The position numbers were made by a program, and so were the translations under genes. From positions 1 to 36,296 of IMG/VR virus record IMGVR_UViG_3300046482_000026: 36,296 nt of DNA; one strand, written 5' to 3'. Below, one piece after another: positions 1-16,599 of this stretch. This DNA is from a virus. Numbering within the stretch: the stretch's first letter is position 1; the number at the start of each line of letters is the position of its first letter. Under the pieces are notes generated by a model. The model worked only from the letters and a program-made list of their open reading frames with translations, was not told the origin of the DNA and did no database searches.

Positions 1-127
1 CCCGGTCCAGCCCTTCGAGGACAGGACCGACTCAGGCGGACGCGCGCCTGCCTGAGGCGCCTTAGGCGTCTCTCGGCTGATGAAGTCGTCATAGAACGCC
101 ATCGACAATCTGGCTACGGTGAACCAA
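1..127. repeat. Direct terminal repeat, left copy
   Basis: The first 127 bases are identical to the last 127 bases of the window. This indicates a circular or terminally redundant molecule with 36169 unique bases. A length of 127 equals a common maximum k-mer of short-read assemblers, so the repeat may be an assembly overlap rather than a biological terminal repeat. It lies inside the 3' end of the holin gene. Confidence 0.95.
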
Positions 128-387
128 GCCAACACGGCGCCAACGATGCCGATGATGTCGAGGCTCGCCTGGGGCGGTGTTGCCTGGAGCGCGGCCATGA
201 AGCCGACGACAACAGCGAGGAAGGCAAGCAGGAAGCAAGCCAGCTTCTCGCGACCGTCCAGCGCGCCCCTGAACTGCGGCACGGCCTTGAGGACTTGGAT
301 GATGCCCTGGATGATGCCGGCCCAGATCGGCGCACCGGCGGCGGTCAGGACGGTCGTGATGACCGCCGCATCCTGAAAGTCGATCAC
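1..387 (-). CDS. Holin, spanning the circular join
   Basis: The frame starts with GTG at 387-385, overlapping the TGA of the upstream peptidase as GTGA. A strong Shine-Dalgarno, AAGGAGGT, lies at 404-397. It gives 129 codons to base 1, continues through base 36169 for one Val codon and stops with TAG at 36166-36164, so the full protein is 130 aa. The sequence has a hydrophobic or amphipathic N-terminal stretch (about residues 6-33), a clear TM segment around 48-67 (LACFLLAFLAVVVGFMAAL), a second around 75-95, and a polar Pro-rich C-terminus. Size, topology and position next to a peptidase and an XhlA-like protein fit a phage holin, which makes membrane lesions at lysis. The family cannot be named. 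A small membrane protein of other function is the main alternative. Confidence 0.75.
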   Translation of the reverse strand, partial: MIDFQDAAVITTVLTAAGAPIWAGIIQGIIQVLKAVPQFRGALDGREKLACFLLAFLAVVVGFMAALQATPPQASLDIIGIVGAVLAWFTVARLSMAFYDDFISRETPKAPQAGARPPESVLSSKGWTG

Positions 388-1070
388 TGCAGTCCAACCT
401 CCTTAGACAGCGCATTGATCTCGGTCATGCGTCGCTCGAGCTCCACGATGCGCGCCTGGGCAGCCAACAGCTCGGGCGAGGGCAGTGGCAATGGCTCGGG
501 CAGTGGCTCGGGGCTGACCGGCGTGGTGTCGTCGCGGAACACGATGGCGACGACCTGCGGATGGTTCTCCTCGGCGATGTCGAGTTGGTAGTAGGCGAAG
601 TCGTCCCACGGACTATCGACGCCTGACACGGCCTCGGCGAAGGTGTCGGCGTAGCACTCCGACGGGCGGTTGACGTAGATGGTCGGCCGCCAGTTGGTCG
701 GATGGCTCCCGTTCGCCTTGTCCATGAGCAGCATCAGCTCGGCCTTCTTGACGCTGGTCAGGGGCAGGACGTGGGCAATCTCGTGGCGCACAATGTGGCG
801 CGCCTTGCGCGGCTGGCGACGGGCCACCCGGGCGTTGATCCAGAGCGTGTCGCGGTCAACCACGCGGCCCTCGTTCACCACGCCATCGGCGAACACGTAG
901 CCCCGCGCCCGGAACTCCTCGACGCTGTGGAACTCGATGGTGTACGGCCGGGGCACGGCAGTCTCGAGCGGGACGGGCGACTTGGTCGCCTCGTCGAGCG
1001 CCTGGCGGACGAGGGCCACCTGCTCGGTCGTGCCCTTGGCCGTGATCCGGCCCCACGTGCCCGTGCTCAT
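384..1070 (-). CDS. HExxH gluzincin-type metallopeptidase; candidate lytic enzyme
   Basis: This 228-aa protein carries the zinc-metallopeptidase motif HEIAH at residues 96-100. A plausible third zinc ligand is Glu138 in SECYADTFAE, the HExxH...E-x-x-A pattern of gluzincins such as the ImmA and minigluzincin group. Residues 1-95 look like a small alpha/beta domain. The C-terminal 60 residues are a Pro-rich linker (PEPLPEPLPLPSPE) followed by a short coiled coil. No signal peptide is visible. ATG at 1070 overlaps the previous stop as ATGA, and its own stop overlaps the holin GTG. It sits in the slot where lysis cassettes usually carry the endolysin, and no amidase, lysozyme or other hydrolase is seen elsewhere. 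A role in lysis is inference. Repressor cleavage or virion maturation are alternatives. Confidence 0.7.
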   Translation of the reverse strand: MSTGTWGRITAKGTTEQVALVRQALDEATKSPVPLETAVPRPYTIEFHSVEEFRARGYVFADGVVNEGRVVDRDTLWINARVARRQPRKARHIVRHEIAHVLPLTSVKKAELMLLMDKANGSHPTNWRPTIYVNRPSECYADTFAEAVSGVDSPWDDFAYYQLDIAEENHPQVVAIVFRDDTTPVSPEPLPEPLPLPSPELLAAQARIVELERRMTEINALSKEVGLQ

Positions 1071-1435
1071 GCGACGCCCAGCAGCATGCGGATCAGGGTC
1101 AGCATGGCGATGATGGCCGACAGGACCGACGTCCCGAGGGCCAGGCGCATCAGGTTCATCGCGCCGCGTAGCTCGGCGCGCCAGTTCTCGATCACTTCCA
1201 GGCGTACCTCGATCGCTGCCAGCTGGCTCTCGTTGCGGACGCCGCGCGACATGCTCTCGCCGGCTGACAGCAGGTGGGCGTTGAACGCCTGCTGCTCGGT
1301 GTCGTGCTTGGCGGCATGCTGTGTGAGGAAGCTGTCCACCTTGCGGTCGAGGCGGTCGACGTCGCGCTCGATGCGCGCCAGCGACGATCGGACCTCGCGG
1401 TCACCGGTTGGGCTGCTGTTGGCATCATCAGCCAT
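1067..1435 (-). CDS. XhlA-like coiled-coil protein with C-terminal TM segment
   Basis: This 122-aa protein has a long charged helical region (about residues 12-90) with heptad-like Leu/Val/Ile spacing around RIERDVDRLDRKVD and EVRLEVIENW. A single hydrophobic segment follows at about 93-120, near the C-terminus. This layout is that of XhlA/haemolysin-type phage proteins, which associate with membranes and assist holins. The gene is the first of the late operon. It follows a promoter candidate at 1592-1618 and an inverted repeat, and its stop overlaps the peptidase start as ATGA. No strong Shine-Dalgarno is visible upstream of the ATG. Assignment rests on architecture and context only. A spanin-like or other tail-anchored protein remains possible. 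Confidence 0.6.
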   Translation of the reverse strand: MADDANSSPTGDREVRSSLARIERDVDRLDRKVDSFLTQHAAKHDTEQQAFNAHLLSAGESMSRGVRNESQLAAIEVRLEVIENWRAELRGAMNLMRLALGTSVLSAIIAMLTLIRMLLGVA

Positions 1436-1504
1436 GCGGCGAGCGGCGGCCAGGAGCCGTCACTCCCAACCGCCGCATCCAGCCGCGTCCTCCCTGCCTT
1501 CGCC

Positions 1505-1535
1505 CACGTCGGCCAAGAGGGGCGTGGCCGACGTG
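1505..1535. other. Perfect 11-bp inverted repeat in the late leader
   Basis: The arms CACGTCGGCCA (1505-1515) and TGGCCGACGTG (1525-1535) are exact reverse complements around a 9-nt loop. In RNA this makes a very stable hairpin about 50 nt downstream of the putative late start site. No T tract follows on either strand, so a simple intrinsic terminator is unlikely. An antitermination or attenuation element, or an operator for a dimeric protein, fits better. Confidence 0.6.
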
Positions 1536-1591
1536 CAGTGGAGAGAGGTGCGGGACCGAAAATGGTTCCACGCACCACAGAATGCATTGCG

Positions 1592-1618
1592 ATTATGTGC
1601 GATGTCTAGCATTTTCAA
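1592..1618 (-). promoter_or_regulatory. Candidate late promoter
   Basis: On the minus strand TTGAAA (1618-1613) is followed after 15 bp by CATAAT (1597-1592). It lies in a short AT-rich patch that stands out from the GC-rich surroundings. It falls between the stop of the small LuxR-type gene and the first lysis gene and points into the late operon. The spacer is short for a sigma-70 promoter, which would suit activator dependence. Confidence 0.45.
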
Positions 1619-1627
1619 ACAAACGTC

Positions 1628-1834
1628 CTAAAGTGACTGGCCCTGCTCCCGTCCGAGCAGGTAAGCCGCCTCTGTGACGGTCCTGGCACCAGTGACGCGC
1701 AGCATGTAGTGGATGCGAGTTCGCGCGGTGTTCTCGTTGATGCCGAGAGCCTTGGCGGCGCCCTTGTAAGAGCCGTGCTGCAAGTAGGCGACCAACGTCT
1801 GGCGTTGCCGACGGGTGGCCTTCGAGAGAGTCAT
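1628..1834 (-). CDS. Small LuxR/GerE-type helix-turn-helix protein
   Basis: This 68-aa protein is essentially a single DNA-binding domain. RQTLVAYLQHGSYKGAAKAL is followed by GINENTARTRIHYMLRVTGA and ARTVTEAAYLLGRE, the four-helix pattern of LuxR/GerE domains: 'lxxGxsxkeIAxxLgIsxxTVxxHlxxIlxKLgvxxRteA'. There is no receiver or ligand domain. The gene lies just downstream of attP and just upstream of the late promoter candidate, and its start abuts the first integrase arm repeat. It is therefore a good candidate for the late-operon activator. In a lysogen it would be separated from the early operon, because attP lies between the two. Family assignment is good; the role is inferred. Confidence 0.65.
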   Translation of the reverse strand: MTLSKATRRQRQTLVAYLQHGSYKGAAKALGINENTARTRIHYMLRVTGARTVTEAAYLLGREQGQSL

Positions 1835-1835
1835 C

Positions 1836-1884
1836 TTGTCCCGTCGTTTGTCCCGTCGTTCCGGGCCCGAGTTGTCCCGTTGTT
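1836..1884 (+). repeat. Left integrase arm-site repeats (3 copies)
   Basis: TTGTCCCGTCGTT occurs at 1836-1848 and 1848-1860 exactly, and as TTGTCCCGTTGTT at 1872-1884. Starts are 12 and 24 bp apart, all in the same orientation. Confidence 0.75.
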
Positions 1885-1933
1885 CTGGGCCTGCACACGC
1901 TCAAACACGTCAGCCACGCTCACGCCCACAGGT

Positions 1934-1977
1934 ATGGGGTTCAGGAGGTCGAGCGTTCGAATCGCTCCGCCCCGACC
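1934..1977 (+). other. tRNA-Pro(GGG) 3' fragment: att core
   Basis: The plus strand reads as the 3' half of a tRNA. It has the anticodon loop ATGGGGT (1934-1940), the 3' anticodon stem, a 5-nt variable loop, a perfect T stem GAGCG/CGCTC around the T loop TTCGAAT (1951-1967), the acceptor strand CGCCCCG, discriminator A and CC. Anticodon GGG and a CGGGGCG-type acceptor indicate tRNA-Pro. The 5' half is absent, so this is not a functional tRNA. It is the piece that would restore the host gene after integration. Confidence 0.8.
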
Positions 1978-2011
1978 TTTCCAAGCGTGAAACGAGGGCC
2001 GGCTGGTCGGC

Positions 2012-2035
2012 TTGTCCCATGATTGTCCCGTCGAT
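2012..2035 (+). repeat. Right integrase arm-site repeats (2 copies)
   Basis: TTGTCCCATGATT (2012-2024) and TTGTCCCGTCGAT (2023-2035) are same-orientation variants of the left-arm 13-mer, with starts 11 bp apart. The last one abuts the integrase stop codon. Confidence 0.7.
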
Positions 2036-3034
2036 CTAGCCAACGGCGCGGCCCAGCCTGTCGACGGCTTCCTGCATCTGCGTCCAGGACTCGTGGCTGT
2101 AGTGGGCCGTCTGCTCCGTCTTGGAGTGACCCGCGATCCAGCGCCGGACCTCGATCGGGACGCCGGCCTCGGCCATCAGCGTCAGCGCCGTGTGGCGCAG
2201 CGTGTGGAGCGTGTACACAGGCAGGCCGTTGCGCTCGCAGAAGTCGGGGAAGTCGTGACTCACCGAGGACGGGTGATAGGGCCAGATGACGCCCGGGGAG
2301 CGCGGCAGCGAGCGGAACGTCGCAAGTGCCGGCTCCGACAGCGGGATCCGGCGGATGCCCGCCCGCGTCTTGGAACGATCCACGCGAAGCGTCCTCGCCC
2401 GGAGGTCCACGTCGGCCCACGTGAGGGCCAGCAGCTCGCCCCGACGCAGGGCCGTGCAAACAGCAACGGCATATAGCGATGCCAGGCCGTCACCCTGGCC
2501 CGCCGCGATGATCCGCCGCGCCTGCTCGGCGGTGTAGTGGACTGTCGGACGCGCATCGGGCTTCGGCAGGCGCACGCCCTTGACGACGTTCCGGGCCAGC
2601 AGCCCCTCGGCCTCAGCCTGGGCGAGCACCATGGCCAGCGTCTGGACCGTGCCCCGGATGGTGCGGGTCGACAAACCGCGCTCGATGCCGTCCGAGATGA
2701 TGTCTCGAACGTCCTGCGCGTCGATCGCCGAGAGCGGCTTACGGGCGATGGGCTCGATGCGACGGAGCGAGTGGTGGTAGAAATCGGCGGTGGCCGGGCG
2801 GACGACGTTCTGCCGGTCGCGCAGCCAACCCGTCGCGTAGGCGCCGAGCGTCATGCCGAGTGGAGCCGAATGATCGAGCTGCTCCTTGAGCCACGCTCGG
2901 ACGGCCCTTTCCGTTCGCGCCTGATGCTCTCCAGCCCCTCCAGGTAGGACGGCCCGCCAGTAGTCGTATCGCTTGCCGTTGCGCCAGACCGTGCGCCGAC
3001 AGATCGAGCCCTCGCGCCACCCTCTCCGCGCCAT
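2036..3034 (-). CDS. int: Tyrosine integrase
   Basis: This 332-aa tyrosine recombinase catalyses site-specific integration and excision. The N-terminus (about 1-35, GWREGSICRR..) resembles the small arm-binding domain. Residues 60-150 form the SAM-like core-binding domain, and the catalytic domain follows. The full catalytic set is visible: Arg197 (TALRRGE), Lys222, His277 and Arg280 (LHTLRHT), His303 (AGHS) and the nucleophile Tyr312 (AHYSH). ATG at 3034 has a good Shine-Dalgarno, GGAGGG (3047-3042). The upstream excisionase-like gene overlaps it by 184 nt in another frame. attP follows directly downstream. Confidence 0.95.
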   Translation of the reverse strand: MARRGWREGSICRRTVWRNGKRYDYWRAVLPGGAGEHQARTERAVRAWLKEQLDHSAPLGMTLGAYATGWLRDRQNVVRPATADFYHHSLRRIEPIARKPLSAIDAQDVRDIISDGIERGLSTRTIRGTVQTLAMVLAQAEAEGLLARNVVKGVRLPKPDARPTVHYTAEQARRIIAAGQGDGLASLYAVAVCTALRRGELLALTWADVDLRARTLRVDRSKTRAGIRRIPLSEPALATFRSLPRSPGVIWPYHPSSVSHDFPDFCERNGLPVYTLHTLRHTALTLMAEAGVPIEVRRWIAGHSKTEQTAHYSHESWTQMQEAVDRLGRAVG

Positions 3035-3186
3035 GTGTTCGCCCTCCGAAACCTCTCGAGGTCGTCCTCGTGGACTCGTGTCACCCTACCCCGTCGGAAT
3101 GCCACCAAGTCGCCCTCTCGCACCCAGCGCCGGACGACGGTCACGTCGACGCCCCACTCCTGAGCGATGGACTCCAGCGTCCTCAT
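2851..3186 (-). CDS. Excisionase-like helix-turn-helix protein
   Basis: This 111-aa frame starts at ATG 3186, overlapping the previous stop as ATGA. Residues 1-50 form an excisionase/MerR-type winged helix: TLESIAQEWGVDVTVVRRWV, a basic wing FRRGRVTRV, and EDDLERF. The next 60 residues are low-complexity and Arg/Ser/Gly-rich, and they overlap the integrase N-terminal coding region by 184 nt, so they are probably unstructured overprinted sequence. The position directly upstream of the integrase suggests a recombination directionality factor. It could instead regulate the operon. A start at 3207 is possible but lacks the coupling signal. Confidence 0.65.
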   Translation of the reverse strand: MRTLESIAQEWGVDVTVVRRWVREGDLVAFRRGRVTRVHEDDLERFRRANTWRGEGGARARSVGARSGATASDTTTGGPSYLEGLESIRRERKGPSERGSRSSSIIRLHSA

Positions 3187-3329
3187 CGCTCGAACAGGGT
3201 GACCCATGGACGCGGGTCTTCCTGCACCTCGGCGTAGTCCTCATCGGGCAGCCTCTCCGGCGTCGAGTGCTGGCGCAGGAACTCGCGGATGAGCCAGAAA
3301 CCGAGGACGACCAGAATGAGGCGCTTCAC
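3183..3329 (-). CDS. Small single-span membrane protein
   Basis: This 48-aa frame starts with GTG at 3329, overlapping the preceding stop as GTGA. It ends with TGA overlapping the ATG of the excisionase-like gene. The N-terminus KRLILVVLGFWLIREFLRQ is a short membrane span with a positive start. An acidic cytoplasmic-type tail (PDEDYAEVQEDP) follows. Function is unknown. Overlaps on both sides support it being translated. Confidence 0.55.
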   Translation of the reverse strand: MKRLILVVLGFWLIREFLRQHSTPERLPDEDYAEVQEDPRPWVTLFER

Positions 3330-3454
3330 CGGCCGAAGCGCAGGGTCGCGCGGTGTTCGCGGATGGCCGTGTCACACTCCTGGACGAGCCATTCGAGGAT
3401 GCTTTGGCCTGCCTCGAAGCGGTAGACCTGACTGCCGCCGGTGTCCCCGCTCAC
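3326..3454 (-). CDS. Hypothetical 42-aa protein
   Basis: GTG at 3454 overlaps the stop of the upstream 86-aa gene as GTGA, and its TGA overlaps the next GTG in the same way. The predicted product contains YRFEAGQSILEWLVQECDTA and ends in TLRFGR. It looks like a small soluble alpha/beta peptide with no recognised motif. It was inferred mainly from the unbroken chain of coupled starts in this operon. Confidence 0.45.
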   Translation of the reverse strand: MSGDTGGSQVYRFEAGQSILEWLVQECDTAIREHRATLRFGR

Positions 3455-3711
3455 TTGCCCGCCTCGGTGTCGGAGAGGGCTTGGAGAAGCAGTTCGTCCT
3501 CGTAGTCGGGGTCGCCCTTTGTCGTGATCCAGTCGCGCCAGCGGTCCAGCGCCTTCTCCAACTCGGCCACTCGTTGCTCGGCGGCTTGGGCGGCTTCGGC
3601 TTCGATGGCGAGGATGTGTCGCGTCAGGTGCGTTTGCGACCTGAACTTGCGTCCGTGTTCGGCAACGAGTGTCCGTCCTGCCTTCGTCACAGGCACAGCG
3701 GGGTCAGTCAT
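3451..3711 (-). CDS. Hypothetical coiled-coil protein
   Basis: This 86-aa product has a clear Shine-Dalgarno (GGAGGAG, about 6 nt before the ATG). Its middle, IEAEAAQAAEQRVAELEKAL, is a predicted coiled coil. The C-terminus is acidic (DPDYEDELLLQALSDTEAG). The N-terminal TDPAVPVTKAGRTLVAE resembles the start of small phage accessory proteins, but no family is recognised. It lies between the nuclease gene and the short genes that lead to the integrase. Confidence 0.55.
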   Translation of the reverse strand: MTDPAVPVTKAGRTLVAEHGRKFRSQTHLTRHILAIEAEAAQAAEQRVAELEKALDRWRDWITTKGDPDYEDELLLQALSDTEAGK

Positions 3712-3733
3712 GCAGCTCTCCTCCGGATGACTC

Positions 3734-4222
3734 TCATGCCGCGTCCTCGTCCCTTCCGAACCACGCTAGGAACTCATCGGCCGGGAACACGAAGTAGTCG
3801 AGCGGCAGGAGCCCCGGTCCCTGGACGAAGCGCAGCAGCAGGCGCGGGCAGCGGGTGTCGTTGCTCATGCCAGCAAACGACTTCGTCCACTCGATCGGCG
3901 GCTTGCGGCGGTGAGTCTTGACCTGCGTGGCGAAGTCCTTGCCGCGCACGTCCACCGGCCCGCCCGCGTGGCCGATCTTGGTGCCGCCGTACTTGCGAGC
4001 GACTGCGAGCTCGGCCCGGTTGCCGTAGTTGCGGGACTGGCGGCCGCGCTTGGCGCGGGCTTCGTCGCGGATGACGTTGCATGAGCGACAGACATAGGCC
4101 GGCGGGATGCCGAAGCCGCCATCCGCGAGATACCATTGGTGACGACTGCACTTCCGGCCCGTGGCGCCAGTGAGGCTCGGCGGCTCGATCGGAGCGTTCG
4201 CGAGTAGGTCATCCAAGCTCAT
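3734..4222 (-). CDS. PD-(D/E)XK nuclease, Holliday junction resolvase-like, with zinc finger
   Basis: This 162-aa protein has an N-terminal zinc-binding pattern (Cys25-x2-His28, Cys45-x2-Cys48). A compact PD-(D/E)XK-type core follows: Glu71 in NRAELAVARKYGG, Asp91 in GGPVDVRG, and Gln100-Val-Lys102 in QVKTHRR. Gln replaces the usual acidic residue in E/QxK, which is tolerated in this fold. Archaeal Hjc-type and phage resolvases have this spacing. It probably resolves branched recombination or replication intermediates together with the Rad52-type and exonuclease products of the same operon. ATG at 4222 overlaps the preceding stop as ATGA. A VSR-like or other structure-specific endonuclease is possible. 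Confidence 0.6.
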   Translation of the reverse strand: MSLDDLLANAPIEPPSLTGATGRKCSRHQWYLADGGFGIPPAYVCRSCNVIRDEARAKRGRQSRNYGNRAELAVARKYGGTKIGHAGGPVDVRGKDFATQVKTHRRKPPIEWTKSFAGMSNDTRCPRLLLRFVQGPGLLPLDYFVFPADEFLAWFGRDEDAA

Positions 4223-5052
4223 GCGGCATCACCGTCGACGTTGCCGATGACTGCGCCGATCCGGGTCATGGCCCGCCCGGACTGGCGCCGATCCTCGCGC
4301 TTGGTCTCCTGCCACGCGTCGTCCTCGACGCCAGCCGCTTCTCGGGCGTCGTGCCACTTGGCCAGGACGTAGTCGATGACCTCACGCGGTCCACCGGCTG
4401 GCGCTGCTCTCACCCAATGCCCGAGGTCATGGGGCCGCGCATCGGCGATCTGCCACAGAAGGCCGCGCTGCGACGTGTCGTCGTCCCCATCGGTCCCAAA
4501 CGGTGCGAAGCCAAACCCTCGTCGCATCCAGGCTTCTTTGAACGGCTGCCACTTTGGTGAAGTGAAGCTGCGCCATGAATCGAGTTGCCGCTGGGTCAGT
4601 CTCGGCTCACTCGTCGGGGGGGTAGGGGGGGCCTTCTGAGTTCGTCTTAGTTCGTCTGAGTTCGTAGGCATGTTTTGAGGATTGCTCGGAGCAGTCGTCG
4701 TCGCATTGCTCGGAGGCTTGCTCACAGGAATGCTCGCAGCATTGCTCGACCAGCGAGACCGGGATGCCTGCGAGGCATGCTCGGAGCGCTTCGCCCGCTC
4801 GGCGTCCATGCCGTGGACACGGAAGCGATGGTTGCCCATCAACTCGATCAAACCCGCTTCCACGAGGGAATGGAGCGCCTTTGGCTTGCAGGCGGCGGGG
4901 ATATGCGCCGACGCCGGCCATGTGCCATCTGCTATCAGCAGGAGCCGCAGCCACCATGCAAGCGCGGCATCATTGCCAAAAACATGCTCGAAACGCGCAT
5001 CGTCCGCGATGCCGTAATAAACCTTCACGTAAGGGTCACGAGCTGCACTCAT
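4219..5052 (-). CDS. Replication initiator-like protein
   Basis: This 277-aa protein has an N-terminal region (about 1-80, with ARDPYVKVYYGIADDARFEH and ALHSLVEAGLIELMGNHRFR) that reads as the winged-helix replisome-organizer type domain found in phage replication proteins. A Ser/Pro/Asn/Thr-rich linker (about 88-150) and a second helical domain (LTQRQLDSWRSFTSPKWQPF onward) follow. The linker-coding DNA contains phased iterons, tandem 10-mers and paired G7 runs (4616-4786). This recalls lambda O, whose gene contains the origin. Start ATG 5052 overlaps the preceding stop as ATGA. ATG 5061 would also be in frame. No helicase is encoded, so it presumably recruits the host helicase. Confidence 0.65.
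   Translation of the reverse strand: MSAARDPYVKVYYGIADDARFEHVFGNDAALAWWLRLLLIADGTWPASAHIPAACKPKALHSLVEAGLIELMGNHRFRVHGMDAERAKRSEHASQASRSRWSSNAASIPVSKPPSNATTTAPSNPQNMPTNSDELRRTQKAPPTPPTSEPRLTQRQLDSWRSFTSPKWQPFKEAWMRRGFGFAPFGTDGDDDTSQRGLLWQIADARPHDLGHWVRAAPAGGPREVIDYVLAKWHDAREAAGVEDDAWQETKREDRRQSGRAMTRIGAVIGNVDGDAA
4616..4786. other. Candidate replication origin inside the replication gene
   Basis: The region contains three elements in a row. First come two runs of seven G separated by TA (4616-4631), able to form a G-quadruplex. Next are three exact-length tandem 10-mers CTKAGTTCGT (4636-4645, 4646-4655, 4656-4665). Last come 11-bp iterons of the type ATTGCTCGGAG starting at 4681, 4705, 4717, 4729, 4741 and 4776. 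Five of the six starts lie on a 12-bp grid. The encoded protein segment is a low-complexity linker. Origin function is inferred from this architecture. Confidence 0.6.
4681..4786 (+). repeat. Iteron array, consensus WTGCTCGNAG, 12-bp period
   Basis: Copies are ATTGCTCGGAG (4681), ATTGCTCGGAG (4705), CTTGCTCACAG (4717), AATGCTCGCAG (4729), ATTGCTCGACC (4741) and CATGCTCGGAG (4776). Start distances are 24, 12, 12, 12 and 35 bp, all same orientation. Such spacing fits binding sites for an initiator. Confidence 0.65.
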
Positions 5053-5339
5053 GCGGCCCAAATCTCCATCTGTTCACGTGATTCCATGCGCTGTGCAGCC
5101 CGCCGAAGTGCACGAACGACGCGGTATTGGTTGACAACCCGGTTGTTCAGCCGGTCGGCGCACGCCCTGACTTCGGCGGCACTCTGTGGCCAGCGATAGC
5201 CGTCCTGGTCGGAATAGATCGGGACGCCGCGAAGCCTTGCGGCGTGGATCTCGAGCTCCACCTCGCGGCTCGTCGTGCCCAGCTTCTCGGCCAGCACGGC
5301 CTTCGTCTGCGGCGTCGCGGTCAGGAGCTCGGCGATCAC
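5049..5339 (-). CDS. Small winged-helix DNA-binding protein
   Basis: GTG at 5339 overlaps the stop of the preceding gene as GTGA and gives 96 aa. Residues 1-50 (VIAELLTATPQTKAVLAEKL, then GTTSREVELEIHAARLRGVP and IYSDQDGYRWP) have the helix-turn-helix plus wing pattern seen in replisome and regulatory proteins. The rest is helical and basic (NRVVNQYRVVRALRRAAQRM). A longer frame from 5471 adds an Arg-rich leader that looks non-coding. It is directly upstream of, and coupled to, the replication initiator gene, so it may assist origin binding or control its expression. Confidence 0.55.
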   Translation of the reverse strand: MIAELLTATPQTKAVLAEKLGTTSREVELEIHAARLRGVPIYSDQDGYRWPQSAAEVRACADRLNNRVVNQYRVVRALRRAAQRMESREQMEIWAA

Positions 5340-5563
5340 GCGACCCTCGACTTCGGCTTGTTCAGCAGCCGTCCGAAGCGATTGTCGTGAACGTCTGGCA
5401 GGTGATTGCGGCACCAGCCCGTGGCCACGCCGTAGATGTCGCGCTCGACGGTCACGGCCAGCTCGTCGCACGGGATGGCCAGGGCCATGTCACGCGCAAT
5501 GAAGGAGCAGTGGTGGCCCTTCCAGCTCGGCATGGGCTGGTCCTCGGCGAGGACGTGTTTCAT
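5336..5563 (-). CDS. Hypothetical 75-aa protein
   Basis: ATG at 5563 overlaps the previous stop as ATGA. The product begins MKHVLAEDQPMPSWKGHHCS and includes ELAVTVERDIYGVATGWC. It has two His and two Cys but no convincing zinc ligand spacing, no TM segment and no recognised family. Within the recombination/replication operon it is likely soluble and early expressed. Confidence 0.5.
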   Translation of the reverse strand: MKHVLAEDQPMPSWKGHHCSFIARDMALAIPCDELAVTVERDIYGVATGWCRNHLPDVHDNRFGRLLNKPKSRVA

Positions 5564-5754
5564 GCGACGCGCCTGATGGATGCCCGCGCGCCGATCGCCA
5601 CGGGGATATGCAGCTTCTCGTCCTCGACCTGCTGGCGCGCCCACCAGTCACGGTGCTGCGGCTTCGCGCGGTGTGTGGCGACGGCAGCGGCAACCTCGAG
5701 CGGGTCGGCCGGATTGGCCTGGATGAAATCCAGGCACGCGCAGCGGCGCCTCAT
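5560..5754 (-). CDS. Hypothetical 64-aa protein
   Basis: ATG at 5754 overlaps the stop of the Rad52-type gene (ATGA) and its own TGA overlaps the next ATG. The product starts MRRRCACLDFIQANPADPLE and contains an aromatic/basic stretch HRDWWARQQ. No family is recognised. Conserved-looking small proteins with a 'DFI..NP..P' start occur beside phage recombination genes, but that is a loose resemblance. Confidence 0.5.
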   Translation of the reverse strand: MRRRCACLDFIQANPADPLEVAAAVATHRAKPQHRDWWARQQVEDEKLHIPVAIGARASIRRVA

Positions 5755-6335
5755 CCCGCCGGCACCAGCTCTTGCGATGCGATCCATGCCTTCGACGGCT
5801 TGCGCTCGCACCACTTGCCCTGCGTCTTGCCGGAGCAGTAATAGCCCTTGGTGTTCTGGCGCCACTTGTAGCCGTGGTCGGGACAGGCCGATTCGTCGAC
5901 CAGCAGCCCGTCGAATACGGGCATCGGATCGCCGTCGAACGGCGTCTCTTCCTGGGGACGGATCGGCGTCGGCGCGGGACGCACGGCGCGCGGTGCGGGC
6001 TTCTCGCCGTACAGGTCGCGGCCGATGCCCCACTTGACCCCGGCGCGCTTGAAGGCGTCGGAGTGGACGCCCTTGGTGGCCTCGATGTCGGACGGGTCGC
6101 CCGCGTCCCACTTCCAGATCCAGTTCACGTCATCGAAGGTGATGCCGATGCCGCAACGGACGGAACCGTCCGAGCGGTCTTCGTAGCGGTCCTGCCAGCG
6201 GGCAGGCCCCACGGCGGCGTCGAGGCGGTCCATGACGAAGCGGGCGTCGATGTACGACAGCAGCCGCCCGCCCGGGCCCTGCCGTGTCTTTATCTCCGAG
6301 GCGGGAGTCGGGTCGTAGAGGTTGATCTTGGTCAT
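5751..6335 (-). CDS. Rad52/Rad22-type single-strand annealing protein
   Basis: This 194-aa protein carries the Rad52 family signature in its first 115 residues: GGRLLSYIDARFVMDRLDAA, VGPARWQDRY, a central GSVRCGIGITF strand and KGVHSDAFKRAGVKWGIGRD. These proteins form rings that bind and anneal single-stranded DNA. The C-terminus (CPDHGYKWRQ..GYYCSG..GKWCER) is a probable zinc ribbon with three Cys and one His. Start ATG 6335 overlaps the exonuclease stop as ATGA. Together the two form a two-component exonuclease/annealase recombination system, analogous to Red alpha/beta but built from a different annealase family. Confidence 0.85.
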   Translation of the reverse strand: MTKINLYDPTPASEIKTRQGPGGRLLSYIDARFVMDRLDAAVGPARWQDRYEDRSDGSVRCGIGITFDDVNWIWKWDAGDPSDIEATKGVHSDAFKRAGVKWGIGRDLYGEKPAPRAVRPAPTPIRPQEETPFDGDPMPVFDGLLVDESACPDHGYKWRQNTKGYYCSGKTQGKWCERKPSKAWIASQELVPAG

Positions 6336-7156
6336 GCAGCTTCCTCCAATCCATCTGTGACAGGAATGGTCTGGCCGATCTCGCAGCCCTCATGGCCCAC
6401 GTCGGGGATGGCATCGCGGAAGCCGCAGTCGGAGCAAAACGTCGTGTCGAAGGCGGCCATCTCGACCGGGCCCGCGAGCAGCGCCCGCCAGTGGGCGGCG
6501 TGCATCTTGCCGAGCGACACGAGGGCTGACAGCCCGGGCGTCTCGACCCAATCCCAATAGGGCTTGATTACGCGGACGTAGACCTGGTAGACGAGGCGCG
6601 GCGGCAGGATGCCGTGCTCCGTTGCCGCGAGATAGGCATAGACGGGCATCTCGGCGCTGCGCCAGAACTTCTCGACTGAGTACTTGCGCGCAGCCGTCTT
6701 GACATCGAGCACGGAGCCGTCGCCAAGCAGGTAGTCGGGCGTCCCGATCACGTCATCGGCGCGCAGGCTCTGGCCGTTGGCGCCCTGGAAGCGGATGCCC
6801 TCGAGCGGGATGCGGGCCAATCCGTTCACCTCGTCGCGCAGGAACAGCGTCATGGCGTTGCGCAGCTGGACCTCGAACGTCGTGCGGTCCTCGATCTCCG
6901 CGCCCCTGACGCTCTCCATGCCCTTCTCGATGGCGAGCTCGAGGTCTGGCTCCTTGCCGGCCGACGCGGCGTACACGAGCTCAAGATGCGCCGAGTCGAC
7001 GGCGGAGCCAAAGTGGACCTTCTCGGGCATCGGGAAGCGCAGCCGTGCGCCGGCCGAGTCGCGGACGTGCTCGCCGTACCAGCCCTTGCGCGCGCAGGGC
7101 GTCGTCATCGTCGTCTTGGACAGGCCGACCCGCGCGGGGTCGATGGTCTTGAGCAT
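6332..7156 (-). CDS. PD-(D/E)XK exonuclease with probable 4Fe-4S cluster (RecB/Cas4-like)
   Basis: ATG at 7156 overlaps the preceding stop by one base (TGATG) and gives 274 aa. A longer upstream frame is rejected as Arg-rich out-of-gene sequence. The nuclease core shows GTPDYLL (Asp141) and VLDVKTA (Asp151, Lys153), the D...DxK arrangement of RecB-family nucleases. The protein also has Cys21 and a distal cluster Cys241-x2-Cys244-x13-Cys258. One N-terminal plus three C-terminal cysteines is the iron-sulfur cluster layout of Cas4 and AddB nucleases. It is coupled to the Rad52-type gene, so it likely resects double-strand ends to supply single strands for annealing. Confidence 0.8.
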   Translation of the reverse strand: MLKTIDPARVGLSKTTMTTPCARKGWYGEHVRDSAGARLRFPMPEKVHFGSAVDSAHLELVYAASAGKEPDLELAIEKGMESVRGAEIEDRTTFEVQLRNAMTLFLRDEVNGLARIPLEGIRFQGANGQSLRADDVIGTPDYLLGDGSVLDVKTAARKYSVEKFWRSAEMPVYAYLAATEHGILPPRLVYQVYVRVIKPYWDWVETPGLSALVSLGKMHAAHWRALLAGPVEMAAFDTTFCSDCGFRDAIPDVGHEGCEIGQTIPVTDGLEEAA

Positions 7157-7428
7157 CACGCGGCGTCGTCGAAGTACGCAGCCACGATCGCGTTGGCGGT
7201 AGCGTGGATGTCGGCCTCGCCAAACTCGGGCACCAGTGCGGACTCGGACTCGACCTGGGCCAGCTGCTTCGTCGCCCACTCGGCAGCGAGGTTGAACGCG
7301 GCCGCATAGCCGTGATCGAGGCCACGCTTGTAGGGGTCCTCGGCGCGCATCGCCCTCGCGGTGAACATCGCCGACTGCGTCTGGAACGAGTCGACCAAAT
7401 CGTGCGCGGCCTTTGTGCGGTAACTCAT
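7156..7428 (-). CDS. Hypothetical 90-aa helical protein
   Basis: ATG 7428 follows a purine-rich leader (AGAGAAAGAGAAG). The product is largely helical, for example HDLVDSFQTQSAMFTARAM, RGLDHGYAAAFNLAAEWATK and HATANAIVAAYFDD, with no TM segment. No family is recognised. It directly precedes the exonuclease by a TGATG overlap and may be an accessory to recombination. Confidence 0.55.
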   Translation of the reverse strand: MSYRTKAAHDLVDSFQTQSAMFTARAMRAEDPYKRGLDHGYAAAFNLAAEWATKQLAQVESESALVPEFGEADIHATANAIVAAYFDDAA

Positions 7429-7449
7429 CTTCTCTTTCTCCCTCTGTGA

Positions 7450-7641
7450 CTAGCCGATCAGCCCTTCCAGCGCCCCCAGGAACAGCAGGACGGCCAGAAT
7501 CCCGGCGGTGACCACCAGGTAGCCGGTGACGACGCGGACGCGCTCTGACGGGCGCCAGCGGCGCACGCGGCTGCTGTAGAGCAGGTCGCCGCCGGGCCAC
7601 TCCACGAGCGGCAGGTCGGGCTCGGCCATCTGGCGGTTCAC
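7450..7641 (-). CDS. Small membrane protein (63 aa)
   Basis: GTG at 7641 overlaps the previous stop as GTGA. A second start, ATG 7629, is in frame. After a polar N-terminus (AEPDLPLVEWPGGDLLYSSR) and a basic patch (RRWRPSERVR), the C-terminal VVTGYLVVTAGILAVLLFLG is a strong TM segment. The function is unknown. It pairs with the 31-aa membrane peptide immediately upstream. Confidence 0.55.
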   Translation of the reverse strand: MNRQMAEPDLPLVEWPGGDLLYSSRVRRWRPSERVRVVTGYLVVTAGILAVLLFLGALEGLIG

Positions 7642-7733
7642 GACAGCAGCTCGAAGGCGAACCAGATGGCCACGATCCAGAAGCCCAGGCTCGCCAGCAA
7701 CGAGACGGTCCACCACGCGCCACGGCTACTCAT
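7638..7733 (-). CDS. 31-aa membrane peptide
   Basis: ATG 7733 overlaps the preceding stop (ATGA) and TGA 7638-7640 overlaps the next GTG (GTGA). The peptide begins MSSRGAWWTV. The segment WWTVSLLASLGFWIVAIWFA fills almost the whole length and is a single membrane span rich in Trp and Phe. Being coupled on both sides supports translation. Such early-expressed micro-membrane proteins sometimes act on host envelope functions, but nothing specific can be claimed. Confidence 0.5.
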   Translation of the reverse strand: MSSRGAWWTVSLLASLGFWIVAIWFAFELLS

Positions 7734-7960
7734 TCGGTCACCCGCCGTTGCAGGACATCGACGATGCGCAGCGAGCCCAGGACCATCTGCAGGGCACTCG
7801 GCCCGAGCTCGGCGCTTGCAGGGATGAGCGCGTTGAGCCGCGCTTCGAGCAGGGCGCACCCGCCGTACACGTCGGCACGGAGGCTGTTGAGCTCTACGCG
7901 GAGGTCGGCTTCCACGGATGTCTCACGTCGATGACGGACGGGTGACTGGACGCGGAGCAC
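7730..7960 (-). CDS. Hypothetical 76-aa helical protein
   Basis: GTG at 7960 begins one base after the stop of the upstream HTH gene. The product includes VEADLRVELNSLRADVYGGC and ALLEARLNALIPASAELGPS, probably a helical bundle or short coiled coil. The first dozen residues are basic. A later start could apply. No family is recognised. Confidence 0.45.
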   Translation of the reverse strand: MLRVQSPVRHRRETSVEADLRVELNSLRADVYGGCALLEARLNALIPASAELGPSALQMVLGSLRIVDVLQRRVTE

Positions 7961-7961
7961 G

Positions 7962-8162
7962 TCACGCGGCCCGGACCATCCCGTCCAGGTCGGCGCGCGT
8001 GATGCGATAGACGCCGCGCAGCCCGACCTTCCTGGCGGGAAGGTGACCCCCCACGATCCAACGACGAATGGTCTCGGGGTGAACGGCCAGGTATGCGGCC
8101 GCTTCCTCGAGCGTAAGAGAAGTCGAGATGTCAGACATTCCCGTTGACTTCTGCGTACTCAT
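7962..8162 (-). CDS. Excisionase/MerR-family small DNA-binding protein, first early gene
   Basis: The core SLTLEEAAAYLAVHPETIRR and WIVGGHLPARKVG followed by VYRITRADLD is a textbook excisionase-family ('HTH_17') domain. ATG at 8162 gives 66 aa and coincides with the expected start point of a strong promoter, which would make the mRNA leaderless. ATG at 8138 would give 58 aa. It is the first gene of the leftward early operon, divergent from the repressor. It could act as Cro-like regulator, excision factor or both. A second gene of the same fold lies next to the integrase. Confidence 0.7.
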   Translation of the reverse strand: MSTQKSTGMSDISTSLTLEEAAAYLAVHPETIRRWIVGGHLPARKVGLRGVYRITRADLDGMVRAA

Positions 8163-8169
8163 GCGGCGC

Positions 8170-8198
8170 AGCGTAGCCCTATGTGGCCGATGTGTCAA
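8170..8198 (-). promoter_or_regulatory. Early leftward promoter
   Basis: On the minus strand a perfect -35 box TTGACA (8198-8193) is followed by 17 bp and TACGCT (8175-8170). The ATG at 8162 lies where transcription should begin, 7 bases after the -10 box, which suggests a leaderless early mRNA. Confidence 0.65.
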
Positions 8199-8200
8199 GT

Positions 8201-8262
8201 AGTCGCAGCGACATCGCATCTGTATCGCACGCGAGCACGCTGCGAAATCGCCAGAAGTCGCA
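8201..8262. promoter_or_regulatory. Candidate repressor operator array
   Basis: TCGC half-sites occur at 8203, 8214, 8225, 8248 and 8258. Distances of 11, 11, 23 and 10 bp place them on one face of the helix. GTCGCAGCGAC at 8202-8212 is a near-palindrome. The array lies just upstream of the early -35 box and between the divergent early operon and repressor gene, the expected place for lysogeny operators. Confidence 0.5.
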
Positions 8263-8287
8263 CGACCAGGGCGTAACGTGAGCCCTA

Positions 8288-8758
8288 GTGAAGTCGGATA
8301 CGGAGAGGGGCGCCTTCGGCGCATGGCTGCGTCGGGAGCGGTTGGCCCGCTATCGCAACGTCGGGAAGGCGACCGAGGCGCTCGAGCGCGCCGGCTACGG
8401 CACGATCAGCATGTCGGAGTGGGCGGAGTACGAATCGGGCAGCCGCCGCCCGTCACCGGAGCGCAGGGCCGCGATCGAGGCGTTCCTGGGCGCAACCGCG
8501 CCCTCAGAGGCGGACGATCAGTCCGATGAGCTGGTCGGCGCTATCCGAGCCCTAACACGAGCAGCAGAGCTCCAATCGGGGCTCTTGGCAGAAGCTCTTC
8601 GAGCACTTCGCGGAGAGGCTGGGTCGGCGGAGATTGGCCCGCTTGTAGTTGCAGCGATCGCAAGAGCGCAAGCTGTCGCGGAGCTACCCGAGGAACAGGA
8701 CAGCGACCCGCCAGCTGTCGAGCCCGCTGGTACGCGGCCTCGTATACGGCAGCGATGA
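8288..8758 (+). CDS. XRE-type immunity repressor (CI-like)
   Basis: This 156-aa protein starts with GTG. Residues 8-70 (FGAWLRRERLARYRNVGKAT, then EWAEYESGSRRPSPERRAAI) match the XRE helix-turn-helix pattern of phage repressors, with 'Y/WE.G.R.P' after the recognition helix. The C-terminal part is helical (AIRALTRAAELQSGLLAEAL) and probably dimerises. No peptidase-type RecA-cleavable domain is present. It is one of only two plus-strand genes and is divergent from the early operon across an operator-like region. A TAACGT -10-like element 9 bp upstream, with no clear -35, could yield a leaderless transcript. Confidence 0.75.
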   Translation: MKSDTERGAFGAWLRRERLARYRNVGKATEALERAGYGTISMSEWAEYESGSRRPSPERRAAIEAFLGATAPSEADDQSDELVGAIRALTRAAELQSGLLAEALRALRGEAGSAEIGPLVVAAIARAQAVAELPEEQDSDPPAVEPAGTRPRIRQR

Positions 8759-8870
8759 AGGCGGCTTCAATGGCTTCTCGGTCGCAGGGATCAGTCACGG
8801 TCATGAAGGTAATGAGGGGTTGTGCCACCTGTGCGCACCAGGCGGCGGGCAATCTACCACGGAGGATGCA

Positions 8871-9323
8871 ATGACACGGATAGTCCTGTTGTCGCTGCTG
8901 CTCATTGCCTGCGGAGGCGCGACCGGCTCACCCACACCACCGCCACCGCCAACGCCGACGCCGGCCCCGACGATCAGCGAGGCGTGCGCGGAGCAGCTCG
9001 AGCCGGTGCTCGAAGCCCTCGAAGAGTTGGACGGGCGCCTCGACGTCGGTCTCACAAAGGTCCAGTACGGCGAGCGCATGGGCGACATCGCGGTTGAATA
9101 CAACCGCCTGGACATCGACGAGCTGTCGGCCGAGGCGTCCTGCCTCGCGGTCGCAGTGATCCTCGAGGACGCCTACAACCAGTACATCACGGCCAACAAC
9201 GAGTGGTCCGACTGCATCAGCGACACCGACTGCGATACCGAATCGATCCAGCCGACGCTGCAGCGCCATTGGTCGGCGGCGTCAAGGAAGATCGAGGAGG
9301 CGCGGGCATCCTTCACTTCATGA
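8871..9323 (+). CDS. Prophage-expressed lipoprotein (candidate lysogenic conversion gene)
   Basis: ATG 8871 has GGAGGA five bases upstream and begins MTRIVLLSLLLIACGG, a short signal peptide with lipobox LIAC and lipidated Cys14. A Pro/Thr linker (SPTPPPPPTPTPAPT) follows, then a helical domain of about 115 residues. That domain has four cysteines (EACAE, ASCLAV, DCISDTDC), probably two disulfides. It would sit on the outer face of the cytoplasmic membrane (or be sorted onward). It shares the plus strand with the repressor, so it is likely made in lysogens. Known phage lipoproteins of this kind block superinfection or alter surface traits. That role is inference. Starts upstream at 8649 are rejected because the signal peptide would be internal. 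Confidence 0.75.
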   Translation: MTRIVLLSLLLIACGGATGSPTPPPPPTPTPAPTISEACAEQLEPVLEALEELDGRLDVGLTKVQYGERMGDIAVEYNRLDIDELSAEASCLAVAVILEDAYNQYITANNEWSDCISDTDCDTESIQPTLQRHWSAASRKIEEARASFTS

Positions 9324-9358
9324 GGCTCGTCTTCGACTCGTCGCGGGCGAGGGTGCGG

Positions 9359-12300
9359 TTAGTGCAGGTCGACCCACGTCCCGTTGGCACGGACGCGCAG
9401 CTTGTCGGTGGTGGTGTTGTAGTAGACCTGCCCGTCGGTGCTGTCGCCGGAAGCGGGGTCGGACGACAGGGACGGGAACACGACGCCGTAAATGCTCTCG
9501 CCGGCGGTGTCGGTGATGTTGTCCTGCCCGACGCGCAGGATCCAGCCCCGCGTGCCCGATAGGGACTCGCCCTCGAACTCGGTGCCGACCGCCGCACCGG
9601 CGATGTAGACACAGCCCGAGGCATGGTGATGCACAGCCTCAGCCTGTGCCGAGTCGTCGGCATCACCTCCGAACCTCTGGATGATCTTTGTGTCGCCCGT
9701 CGTCTTGGCGATGGTCAACAGCACGGCCTCCGACGGGTCGTCGTCCCAGTCGGCCTCCCCGATGTAGCCGACCACGCGCACGAAGTCGGTGACCACGACC
9801 TGGTTGCCGTTGCCCGTGGTGACGAGCGACGGGAAGCGGTAGTCGTGGCGCGAGTTGAGGTTGGCGCTCCACAGCTGGACACCCGACGGGTCGTAGCGGA
9901 CGAGGGTGTTGCTGCCCAGCTTGTAGACGTAGTAGGCGTCGTCGACCGCCCAGTCCTTGTTGTTCGGGTCGAAGAAGCCGGTGATGGTCACCGTGTCCTG
10001 GAGCACAGCGCTGCGGTTGAAGCGGAGCAGCGTGTTGCTGCCCTGCTGGACCATTGCGAACTGGCCCGACGCCGAGCGCCGCATCGATGTCCCCTCCGAG
10101 CTCAGAGAAGTCTCGGTTATGAGGCTGCCGTCCTCGGAGTCGCGCACCTGGAGCACGGGGCCGCCAGTTCGGACGATGAGCGGCCCCGCGTCGGCGGTGT
10201 CGCCGCCCGCTGCCCACACGCCGTCACCGTAGGCGATGCCGCCCGTGAACTCGAACGGGAAGAAGGGCGTTGCCGTGAAGAAGCTGCTGTCGTCGTTGGC
10301 CCAGCCCGACGTGCCCGTTGCGCTGGCAAAGATCGTCCCGTCGCCGACGATCGCCATGAACTGATCCCCGTACTCGATGTCATAAGGTGCACTGCCGCTG
10401 AACGGGTTGATGCCGGTCCAGCCGAACATATCGGTCACGTCGTCGTTGTACATCACGCCCGTTACCGGATTGCCCGACACGACAGTCGAGTTGGACGATC
10501 CCGAGACGAGCCACACTCCCGCGCCATAGGTGACGGACACCATGCTCGACAGGACACCGCCGTCGTCGCCACCGCCGTTGGCGATCTCGCCGTAGTTGGT
10601 CCAGGTTGTGCCGTTGGTGCTGGTGGCGATGTCGTCGCCGCCGACCACCACGAAACGCCCGTTGCCGTAGGCCACGTCCATGTCCGGCCCGAACGTCGGG
10701 TCGGCTTGCGTGTGCCCGGCTGCGTCTGTCACCGTGCGCGCCGTCCAGCCTGTCGTCGGGTCGGAGCCGGTCGTGGCGATGGCGTAGACGCCCGGAGCGT
10801 GGCCGTCGCCGACCGCCACCCAGATCGAGTTGCCGTAGGCCACGGACGTGAGGGAGTCGTCGGCGTTGGCGTTGAGGCCGCTGATGGTGCGCGAGGTCCA
10901 CGAGCCCGACAGGCTGGTGGCGGTGTACAGCCGGTAGGCCGTATTGGTCGTGCCGACTGCTACCCAATAGCCGTTGCCGTAGGCGATGCCGCGCATGGTA
11001 TTGGTGCTGAATACCTGCGTGCCCGTCCACGTCGCGCCATCGTCAGTCGAGTAGGACAGGTAGCCCGAGGAACCAACCGCGCCCCAGTTGCCCGCGCCGT
11101 CGGTAGCAATGTCGTTGAGGTGTGCGGTGCTGATGTTGGCGTTCTCGCTGCTCCAGCTCGCCGCGCCGCCCGACGTCACCCAGAAGTGACGCACGTCCTG
11201 AGTTTGCGCAGCGATGGCGGTGATGCTGCCGGTTATGTCCCATTCCTCGGCGCCGGTGTCGCGGCGGTATGCCTTGTCGCCGAAGTTGGCTGGCACCCAC
11301 GTCCCCGGCTGGTGCGTGACGTAGGGCACGCCGCCCGATGCCGTGACCGACCAGACCCGTGTGCTCAGGTCCAGGTTGTACTTTGCCAACAGCTCGGCAT
11401 CTGGATCGTGGGCGTAGATCTGCTCGCCGCCGCCTGACTCCAGCGACAGCTCAGAGTCCATGCCCGACGGCAGCAGCGCCACGGAACGGCCACAGCCAGC
11501 CGTCCCGTCACCGTCCTCACCGTAGTCGATCACGTCATCGCCACGCCCGCCGATGGCCGCTGCCAGCACGTCGGAGAGGAGCGTCAGGCTGACGAGGTAT
11601 TCCACGTCAGACGCACCGCCCTGACCACCCAGCGGCTCGACGATGCGCCGCGTCACGCGGTAGTAGGTGTAGCTGCTGATGCCATGGCGGGTGAGCTTGA
11701 TCTGCACACGCTGGCCGGCACGGATGTCGTTGACGTTCGCCGCAGGCAATCGGACCGCCAGGCCCTCGATCTCCAGTATCTCGTTGGCCGCTCCGTCGAG
11801 GAACGCCTGCGCCTTGGTCGTAGCGAGGCTCTGTGTGGCGATCGAGGCGTCGCTGATGGTCGCCTCGCGCGTGCGGTAGGTGCCCTCGGTGCCCGAGTCC
11901 TCGACGTACACCGTGCCGTTCTTGTACTGCAGGTAGACCGCCGAGAAGATGCGGTCGGGCGAGCGTTTGACGCGCGGCGCGCCCTGCGGCGCCCAGACCG
12001 TGGACGAGTTCACGTCTGCCGCCACGTCGCTGATCGACGCGCTTGACGAGAGCGATGTTCCGGTGGCGAGGTCGTAGTAGAGCAGCTCGCCCGCACCGTA
12101 GTCGTAGACGAACCAGAGCTTGCCCGCGGCTTCGGATGCCTCGGCCAGCACGTCGGCGGGATTGCGCCCGATGTAGCTGGTCGGCTCGAGCGTGACCGTG
12201 TTCGTGTTCGGCACGACACCGGCCGCCACCACGTCACCGAAGCGCGTGGTCAGCAGCCAGGTGATGCGCGCGTAGTCGGTCTCCTCCGGCCGCTCCGCAC

Positions 12301-12631
12301 CCTCGTCCCGGGCCAGCACGTAATCGGTGGCGAGGACGTTCAGATCGGTCATCTCGACCGCCCACTCCCGCGCCGACGCGACCTTGTTGATGCCGCGTTG
12401 CGTCGCCCGGTCGTGAGTGAAGCCGGTGAACAGGCGCGTGTTGCCCGTCGCCGCTGACTCGGCAACCGTGACCGACTTGAGCGCGGGCAGTGTGACCGAG
12501 GCGTTGGAGTCGTGCAGGTCGAAACCGCCGGTGCCCACCTCGCCCCGGTTGGCAGCCTCCACGAACGAGAACGATTCCAGCCTGATCTTGTCGGTCAGGT
12601 CAACGCTATTGACGGTGATGGTCCGACTCAT
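9359..12631 (-). CDS. Tail-tip / receptor-binding protein with beta-propeller repeats
   Basis: This 1090-aa protein follows the tape measure (ATGA overlap). Residues 1 to about 370 (TITVNSVDLTDKI.., RNPADVLAEASEA.., DIRAGQRVQIKLTRHG) resemble a baseplate-hub or distal-tail domain. From about 430 to 830 there are repeated BNR/kelch-like blades (GNGYWVAVG, GNSIWVAVG, GNGRFVVVG, ATSTNGTTWT, GDGVWAAGG). A second repeated region (LLRFNRSAVLQDTV, LVRYDPSGVQLW, GYIGEADWDDD) may be another propeller. A short C-terminus ends in ANGTWVDLH. It is the only gene between the tape measure and the end of the late operon. It may therefore combine hub and host-recognition roles, with propellers binding glycans. 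Confidence 0.75.
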   Translation of the reverse strand: MSRTITVNSVDLTDKIRLESFSFVEAANRGEVGTGGFDLHDSNASVTLPALKSVTVAESAATGNTRLFTGFTHDRATQRGINKVASAREWAVEMTDLNVLATDYVLARDEGAERPEETDYARITWLLTTRFGDVVAAGVVPNTNTVTLEPTSYIGRNPADVLAEASEAAGKLWFVYDYGAGELLYYDLATGTSLSSSASISDVAADVNSSTVWAPQGAPRVKRSPDRIFSAVYLQYKNGTVYVEDSGTEGTYRTREATISDASIATQSLATTKAQAFLDGAANEILEIEGLAVRLPAANVNDIRAGQRVQIKLTRHGISSYTYYRVTRRIVEPLGGQGGASDVEYLVSLTLLSDVLAAAIGGRGDDVIDYGEDGDGTAGCGRSVALLPSGMDSELSLESGGGEQIYAHDPDAELLAKYNLDLSTRVWSVTASGGVPYVTHQPGTWVPANFGDKAYRRDTGAEEWDITGSITAIAAQTQDVRHFWVTSGGAASWSSENANISTAHLNDIATDGAGNWGAVGSSGYLSYSTDDGATWTGTQVFSTNTMRGIAYGNGYWVAVGTTNTAYRLYTATSLSGSWTSRTISGLNANADDSLTSVAYGNSIWVAVGDGHAPGVYAIATTGSDPTTGWTARTVTDAAGHTQADPTFGPDMDVAYGNGRFVVVGGDDIATSTNGTTWTNYGEIANGGGDDGGVLSSMVSVTYGAGVWLVSGSSNSTVVSGNPVTGVMYNDDVTDMFGWTGINPFSGSAPYDIEYGDQFMAIVGDGTIFASATGTSGWANDDSSFFTATPFFPFEFTGGIAYGDGVWAAGGDTADAGPLIVRTGGPVLQVRDSEDGSLITETSLSSEGTSMRRSASGQFAMVQQGSNTLLRFNRSAVLQDTVTITGFFDPNNKDWAVDDAYYVYKLGSNTLVRYDPSGVQLWSANLNSRHDYRFPSLVTTGNGNQVVVTDFVRVVGYIGEADWDDDPSEAVLLTIAKTTGDTKIIQRFGGDADDSAQAEAVHHHASGCVYIAGAAVGTEFEGESLSGTRGWILRVGQDNITDTAGESIYGVVFPSLSSDPASGDSTDGQVYYNTTTDKLRVRANGTWVDLH

Positions 12632-16568: not shown

Positions 16569-16583
16569 TCGTTAGAAGATGGC

Positions 16584-16599
16584 GAAGGGCACGCCCTTC
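16584..16599. other. Hairpin upstream of the major tail gene
   Basis: GAAGGG (16584-16589) and CCCTTC (16594-16599) pair perfectly around a 4-nt loop. The hairpin lies between the stop of the preceding gene and the GTG of the major tail gene, in one of the few non-overlapping junctions of the late operon. It may stabilise or punctuate the mRNA. Confidence 0.45.

Follow-up and report, generated by a model that had tools for sequence, protein, structure and literature searches.

Pixie, a mycobacteriophage of Cluster K3, has an attachment site whose core is a 47-bp 3' half of a tRNA-Lys gene, with an adjoining tyrosine integrase gene and putative arm-type sites in direct orientation, two plus three, and phages related to Pixie have the identical core with different arm sequences (PMC3203893). 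The attachment site described here lies in a virus record of 36,296 bp, IMGVR_UViG_3300046482_000026, which is called the window below. It shares with Pixie a tRNA 3'-half core, an adjoining tyrosine integrase and a direct two-plus-three arm array. Pixie, in contrast, has a sixth, inverted site and carries attP 5' of int rather than 3' as in the window, and the two differ in tRNA, arm sequence and host phylum. The arrangement is a textbook one, and a two-plus-three direct array around a tRNA half was already known from Pixie.

Lambda and L5 also resemble the window in having an arm-binding tyrosine integrase with arm sites around the core, and L5 further resembles it in the direct orientation of these sites and the use of a tRNA gene. 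Integration in these phages involves host factors, IHF in lambda and mIHF in L5. Both integrases are distant from that of the window, which is less than 31.5% identical to phage proteins among the matches listed. In KplE1, arm sites overlap the intS promoter and intS is regulated at attL (PMC2951348). The window is similar in that its arm sites lie upstream of a gene that recombination proteins could regulate; however, the gene in question is the integrase itself in KplE1 and a small LuxR-type gene in the window, and a scan with an E. coli-type consensus located no promoter around attP.

We conclude that the locus is very probably an intact attP, belonging to a temperate tailed phage that infects Limnocylindria; the adjoining integrase would bind its arms and core and recombine in the anticodon loop of tRNA-Pro(GGG). 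The observations that support this reading are the identity of the core, the cluster of repeats, the integrase gene, the circularity of the genome, a target found in one class, restoration of the tRNA in silico and the layout in relatives.

The attachment site is unbroken in a circular phage genome

The record has a G+C content of 66.7%, and both of its ends carry an exact 127-bp direct repeat. A contig from a different sample (L002), 99.9-100% identical, spans the end-to-end join. The genome is therefore a 36,169-bp circle, or circularly permuted, so attP is unbroken and is not the end of a prophage. In the direction of minus-strand transcription, int is followed by attP (2035-1836), a 68-aa helix-turn-helix (HTH) gene, small genes and the terminase genes, which extend across the join. 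The genome also has recognisable capsid, portal, tape measure and Rad52-like genes. A glycosyltransferase-like gene (18363-19622, minus strand; phrog_2170, 1e-19) lies amid the head-tail genes.

The large terminase gene (TerL; 34485-35813, minus strand) appears to be a mosaic. Three contigs (L007, L008, L100) are 58-59% identical to it in the ATPase half but have nuclease halves that cannot be aligned to it, and two others (L101, L103) match only in the nuclease half, at about 50% identity. The half-length matches in the first three had raised the suspicion of an intein, which we rejected because their reading frames align over the ATPase half only and then continue into a different nuclease half. 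Another phage, L006 (4658-9661, compared with window positions 1-5000), has a TerL 72% identical to that of the window and a methyltransferase-like gene (DNA) between its replication and terminase genes. An integrase domain was absent from the 33-kb L006 contig, which is possibly a non-integrating sister phage.

Table 1. Features of the attP region in window coordinates and, in the last six rows, arm positions in bp, counted from the first anticodon-loop base to the start of each motif, with an uncertainty of a few bp in the register from one motif to another
Feature	Position	Strand	Sequence or basis
attP core	1934..1977	+	tRNA-Pro(GGG) 3' half, first anticodon-loop base to ACC; 44/44 identity to Limnocylindria tRNA-Pro(ggg) genes
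Strand-exchange region (putative)	1934..1940	+	anticodon loop ATGGGGT; identity edge coincides with loop
Left arm-type site 1 (putative)	1836..1848	+	TTGTCCCGTCGTT, exact repeat; cluster statistics; similar pairs in relatives
Left arm-type site 2 (putative)	1848..1860	+	TTGTCCCGTCGTT; 12 bp from site 1
Left arm-type site 3 (putative)	1872..1884	+	TTGTCCCGTTGTT; 24 bp from site 2; extra relative to relatives
Right, integrase-side arm-type site 1 (putative)	2012..2024	+	TTGTCCCATGATT, weakest copy
Right arm-type site 2 (putative)	2023..2035	+	TTGTCCCGTCGAT; 11 bp from right site 1
Remnant of host tRNA downstream flank, decayed	1978..2000	+	86-92% identity to host flanks up to 1992-2000 in some genomes
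Tyrosine integrase, 332 aa	2036..3034	-	PF00589 7e-19; phrog_1 integrase 5e-58; alignment with L112 integrase
LuxR/GerE-type helix-turn-helix protein, 68 aa	1628..1834	-	HTH families above cut-off; L112 homologue in same place; model
Window arms (TTGTCCC)	-98, -86, -62; +78, +89		
L112 arms (GCCAGCCAT)	-117, -105; +105, +117		
L003 arms (TGTCA)	-48, -36; +108, +120		tRNA-Asn(GTT) core
L105 arms (ATCCCTTACC)	+104, +115		
L104 arms (CGTACCACT)	+102, +114		
L010 arms (CCCTAAC)	+105; before displaced tRNA fragment -105, -92		

The core restores a proline tRNA gene upon recombination in silico

The core had been proposed, in a reading made from the sequence alone, to be the exact 3' half of a proline tRNA. 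We found it to be identical, without a single difference, to the 44 bases that end a tRNA-Pro gene with anticodon GGG, in about 20 Limnocylindria genomes, and the identity between attP and attB has its left edge at the first anticodon-loop base. A complete tRNA was not found anywhere in the window. When the 5' half from a host (L010, L012, L013 or L016) was joined to the 3' half from the phage, ARAGORN called a tRNA-Pro(ggg), and the reciprocal joints (L012, L013, L016) gave no tRNA. The anticodon loop is among the standard tRNA subsites for islands, and in class A the crossover lies near the loop and the 3' fragment of the element restores the gene (PMC4383910). The phage follows the Islander class A pattern, with identity starting at the first loop base and a restored hybrid tRNA. 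By analogy with known tyrosine integrases, a 7-bp overlap would occupy the anticodon loop. Among viral contigs the exact core sequence had no match, and a pattern that covers the variants of tRNA-Pro(GGG) in Limnocylindria matched just seven other contigs among 2.9 million.

Five repeats flank the core and keep their layout in relatives

The three repeats on one side of the core and two on the other, at the spacings reported by the sequence-only reading, were confirmed by coordinate. TTGTCCC opens all five and occurs once elsewhere in the 36 kb, at 22673. Along attP, the 13-mers differ from TTGTCCCGTCGTT at 0, 0, 1, 3 and 1 positions. The copy at 2012 is unremarkable on its own, because 15 matches to the 13-mer with up to three mismatches were found window-wide against 10.7 expected. 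As a group, however, the five repeats within 200 bp exceed chance: no 7-mer reached more than three copies in any of 714 other 200-bp windows, and five copies of any 7-mer arose in 0 of 5000 dinucleotide shuffles. The tandem arm sequence had no match among viral contigs.

We compared the locus with other elements that have an attachment site of this kind. In L003, L104, L105 and L010, arm pairs 11-13 bp apart occur, on one side or both, at about 102-120 bp from the loop. Pairs of 9-mers spaced 11 or 12 bp apart, within 320 bp after int, were present at 9 of 34 related-integrase loci in host genomes versus 17 of 225 controls (p = 0.0025), a value that is probably conservative because the control stretches upstream of int may hold real sites. 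Integrase-side pairs spaced 11-13 bp at about 102-120 bp from the loop thus recur, with a sequence that varies between elements. A kept layout with changing repeats would be expected if each integrase reads its arm sites with its own N-terminal domain. The comparison thus supports the proposal that this is an attP with five arm-type sites. The window departs from its relatives in two respects: there is a third site on the left, and the pair beside the integrase sits about 25 bp nearer the core.

The three left repeats could instead be operators of the LuxR-type regulator, or belong to its promoter region, with the two right repeats as partial look-alikes. The regulator's ATG lies 1 bp from left site 1, so that the three left repeats directly precede the start codon, and the homologous gene of L112 likewise starts near the left pair. 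The repeats, however, flank the core on both sides, and two of them separate it from the integrase; the L003 core has pairs to its left and right, with no such gene seen beside it in the sequence that was read; and there are elements in host genomes with pairs on the integrase side alone. We therefore regard operators in place of arm sites as very unlikely, although the two uses of the repeats could coexist.

An intact integrase gene and a small regulator gene adjoin attP

The integrase gene is complete with an intact frame, and its 3' end adjoins right arm-type site 2. The catalytic residues R197, K222, H277, R280, H303 and Y312 are all present, as assigned by motif and by alignment with the L112 integrase, and the structure model matches the Tn1549 and lambda integrases. 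Ahead of the core-binding domain, the N-terminus is modelled with low confidence as a beta hairpin (11-28) and a helix (34-55), the first 60 residues having a pLDDT of about 36-53. The integrase had no match to the Pfam arm-binding domain. As a single query against viral contigs it found nothing, and an integrase alignment used as the query recovered the L112 record alone.

We infer integrase binding, arm-core bridging, cut positions and infection of the host, the mechanistic steps by comparison with lambda, L5 and related integrases. The N-terminal domain would contact the TTGTCCC repeats and the central and catalytic domains the core, the arms would be bridged to the core as attP folds into a complex, and strand exchange would take place within the anticodon loop of tRNA-Pro(GGG) in the host chromosome. 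The new 3' half would come from the phage, and the displaced host 3' half would move to the far end of the prophage. The tRNA would survive integration because the phage supplies a replacement 3' half.

The 68-aa protein passes the cut-offs of other HTH families, not that of PF00196, which its L112 homologue matches at 1.1e-8. Its model (pLDDT 88) is nearest to NarL and GerE, at a Foldseek E of only 0.009. By sequence and model, both proteins look like a GerE/LuxR-type domain, and the place of the gene beside attP is conserved in the two phages. From this position the protein may be a directionality factor, of the kind required to drive recombination towards excision, or it may regulate lysogeny. 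By analogy with intS of KplE1, occupation of the left arms by integrase might block this gene. A more elaborate possibility starts from the setting: int and the LuxR-type gene share a strand and flank attP, and no terminator was found. Here attP would act as a switch: int would be read through into the regulator in the circle and be split from it by integration, arm-bound integrase would block the start of the regulator, and the LuxR-type protein would represent a novel type of excision or lysogeny factor that recombination itself controls. We consider this switch doubtful.

The attachment cassette moves separately from the rest of the phage

L112 (IMGVR_UViG_3300036766_000833) is a 45.8-kb virus contig with only three proteins in common with the window, all in one stretch: the integrase (38.7% identity), the HTH protein (33%) and a small protein (1067-1435 in the window; 42% over 43 aa). 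As in the window, a homologous integrase, a tRNA-Pro(GGG) core, the LuxR-type gene and the small protein beside it follow one another in L112. Unlike the window, its arm sequence is GCCAGCCAT, it has two sites per side rather than three plus two, and its core matches another Limnocylindria tRNA variant. The terminase family of the window was not found in L112.

L003 shows the converse. Its TerL is 73-77% identical to that of the window and its portal and other genes are also related, yet its attachment site has a tRNA-Asn(GTT) half as core and other repeats. A search for an integrase domain in seven terminase-related records found none; thus, the L003 integrase is missing from the contig. The cassette therefore moves as a unit, given L112, which has the cassette without other shared phage genes, and L003, which has shared phage genes and another site. 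From these comparisons, integration specificity travels with the cassette, separately from the rest of the phage, passing between otherwise unrelated phages with its layout kept and its arm sequence changed. The earlier claim that the integration site can be read directly holds for this phage, at tRNA-Pro(GGG), but the site is not fixed for the phage family, as L003 uses tRNA-Asn(GTT).

The target tRNA points to Limnocylindria as the host

The tRNA-Pro sequence had also been expected to reveal the host lineage, through a search of bacterial genomes for tRNA-Pro(GGG) genes with this ending. We searched 41 bases (1935-1975) against 84,980 species of bacteria and archaea, each represented by a single genome. 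The 20 matching stretches all came from records with Chloroflexi, Chloroflexota or Candidatus Limnocylindrales in the title, so the expectation was borne out: the exact end was found only in Chloroflexota. ARAGORN called an intact tRNA-Pro(ggg) at every one of the 20 loci. Within 177 genomes of the class, taken as Limnocylindria from record titles (RBG_16_70_13, Candidatus Limnocylindrales), about 20 were 100% identical over exactly 1934-1977 and a second large group was one base off. The G+C content of the phage is nearer to the median of three Limnocylindria families (68-68.6%) than to that of Limnocylindraceae (63%) (PMC13212565). TerL relatives in contigs of class genomes reach 50-59% partial identity, and the best named phages 37-45% among the matches listed. 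The phage is thus predicted, from its sequence, to infect uncultured Limnocylindria (Chloroflexota).

No prophage of exactly this phage turned up in any of the 177 genomes. DNA comparison of window positions 1-18200 with host genomes gave, outside the core, mainly short chance matches. The phage has also lost the strong terminator hairpin of the tRNA. Hairpins 3' of the tRNA are strong in L016 (-43.1 kcal/mol, z -3.8) and in the element-borne copy of L010 (-37.6 kcal/mol, z -7.3; whole-segment folds), the phage flank folds worse than most shuffles of itself, and neither folding nor a terminator scan found a terminator 3' of the phage tRNA half. Shortening of the flank with this loss may have brought the integrase-side arm pair closer to the core.

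The missing prophage and the decayed terminator would also suit a relic, that is, a tRNA half and repeats left by a phage that formerly integrated here and no longer does. We consider a relic extremely unlikely, since no core base has diverged from the host genes, the integrase gene has an unbroken frame and a full set of catalytic residues, and the arm sites are well preserved. Read as a working attP, the locus assigns an uncultivated phage to a host class and to a precise position in the chromosome, and it gives Limnocylindria a matched set of integrase, putative arm sites and attB. In the literature searched, no paper contained both the class name Limnocylindria and the word prophage.

A displaced 3' fragment of tRNA-Pro(GGG) follows the intact gene at a distance of 1.4-2.7 kb in three Limnocylindria loci (L109, L108, L010), and integrases related to that of the phage, only distantly, adjoin tRNA-Pro(GGG) in two (L104, L105). 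These loci show that tRNA-Pro(GGG) is a repeated insertion point within the class. In another Limnocylindria genome (L102, about 11019-11150; G161 contig 84), a tRNA-Thr(CGT)-like 3' half lies 113 bp after int with repeats TGTGCAGCA spaced 11 bp apart, and the same contig also carries a related TerL half.
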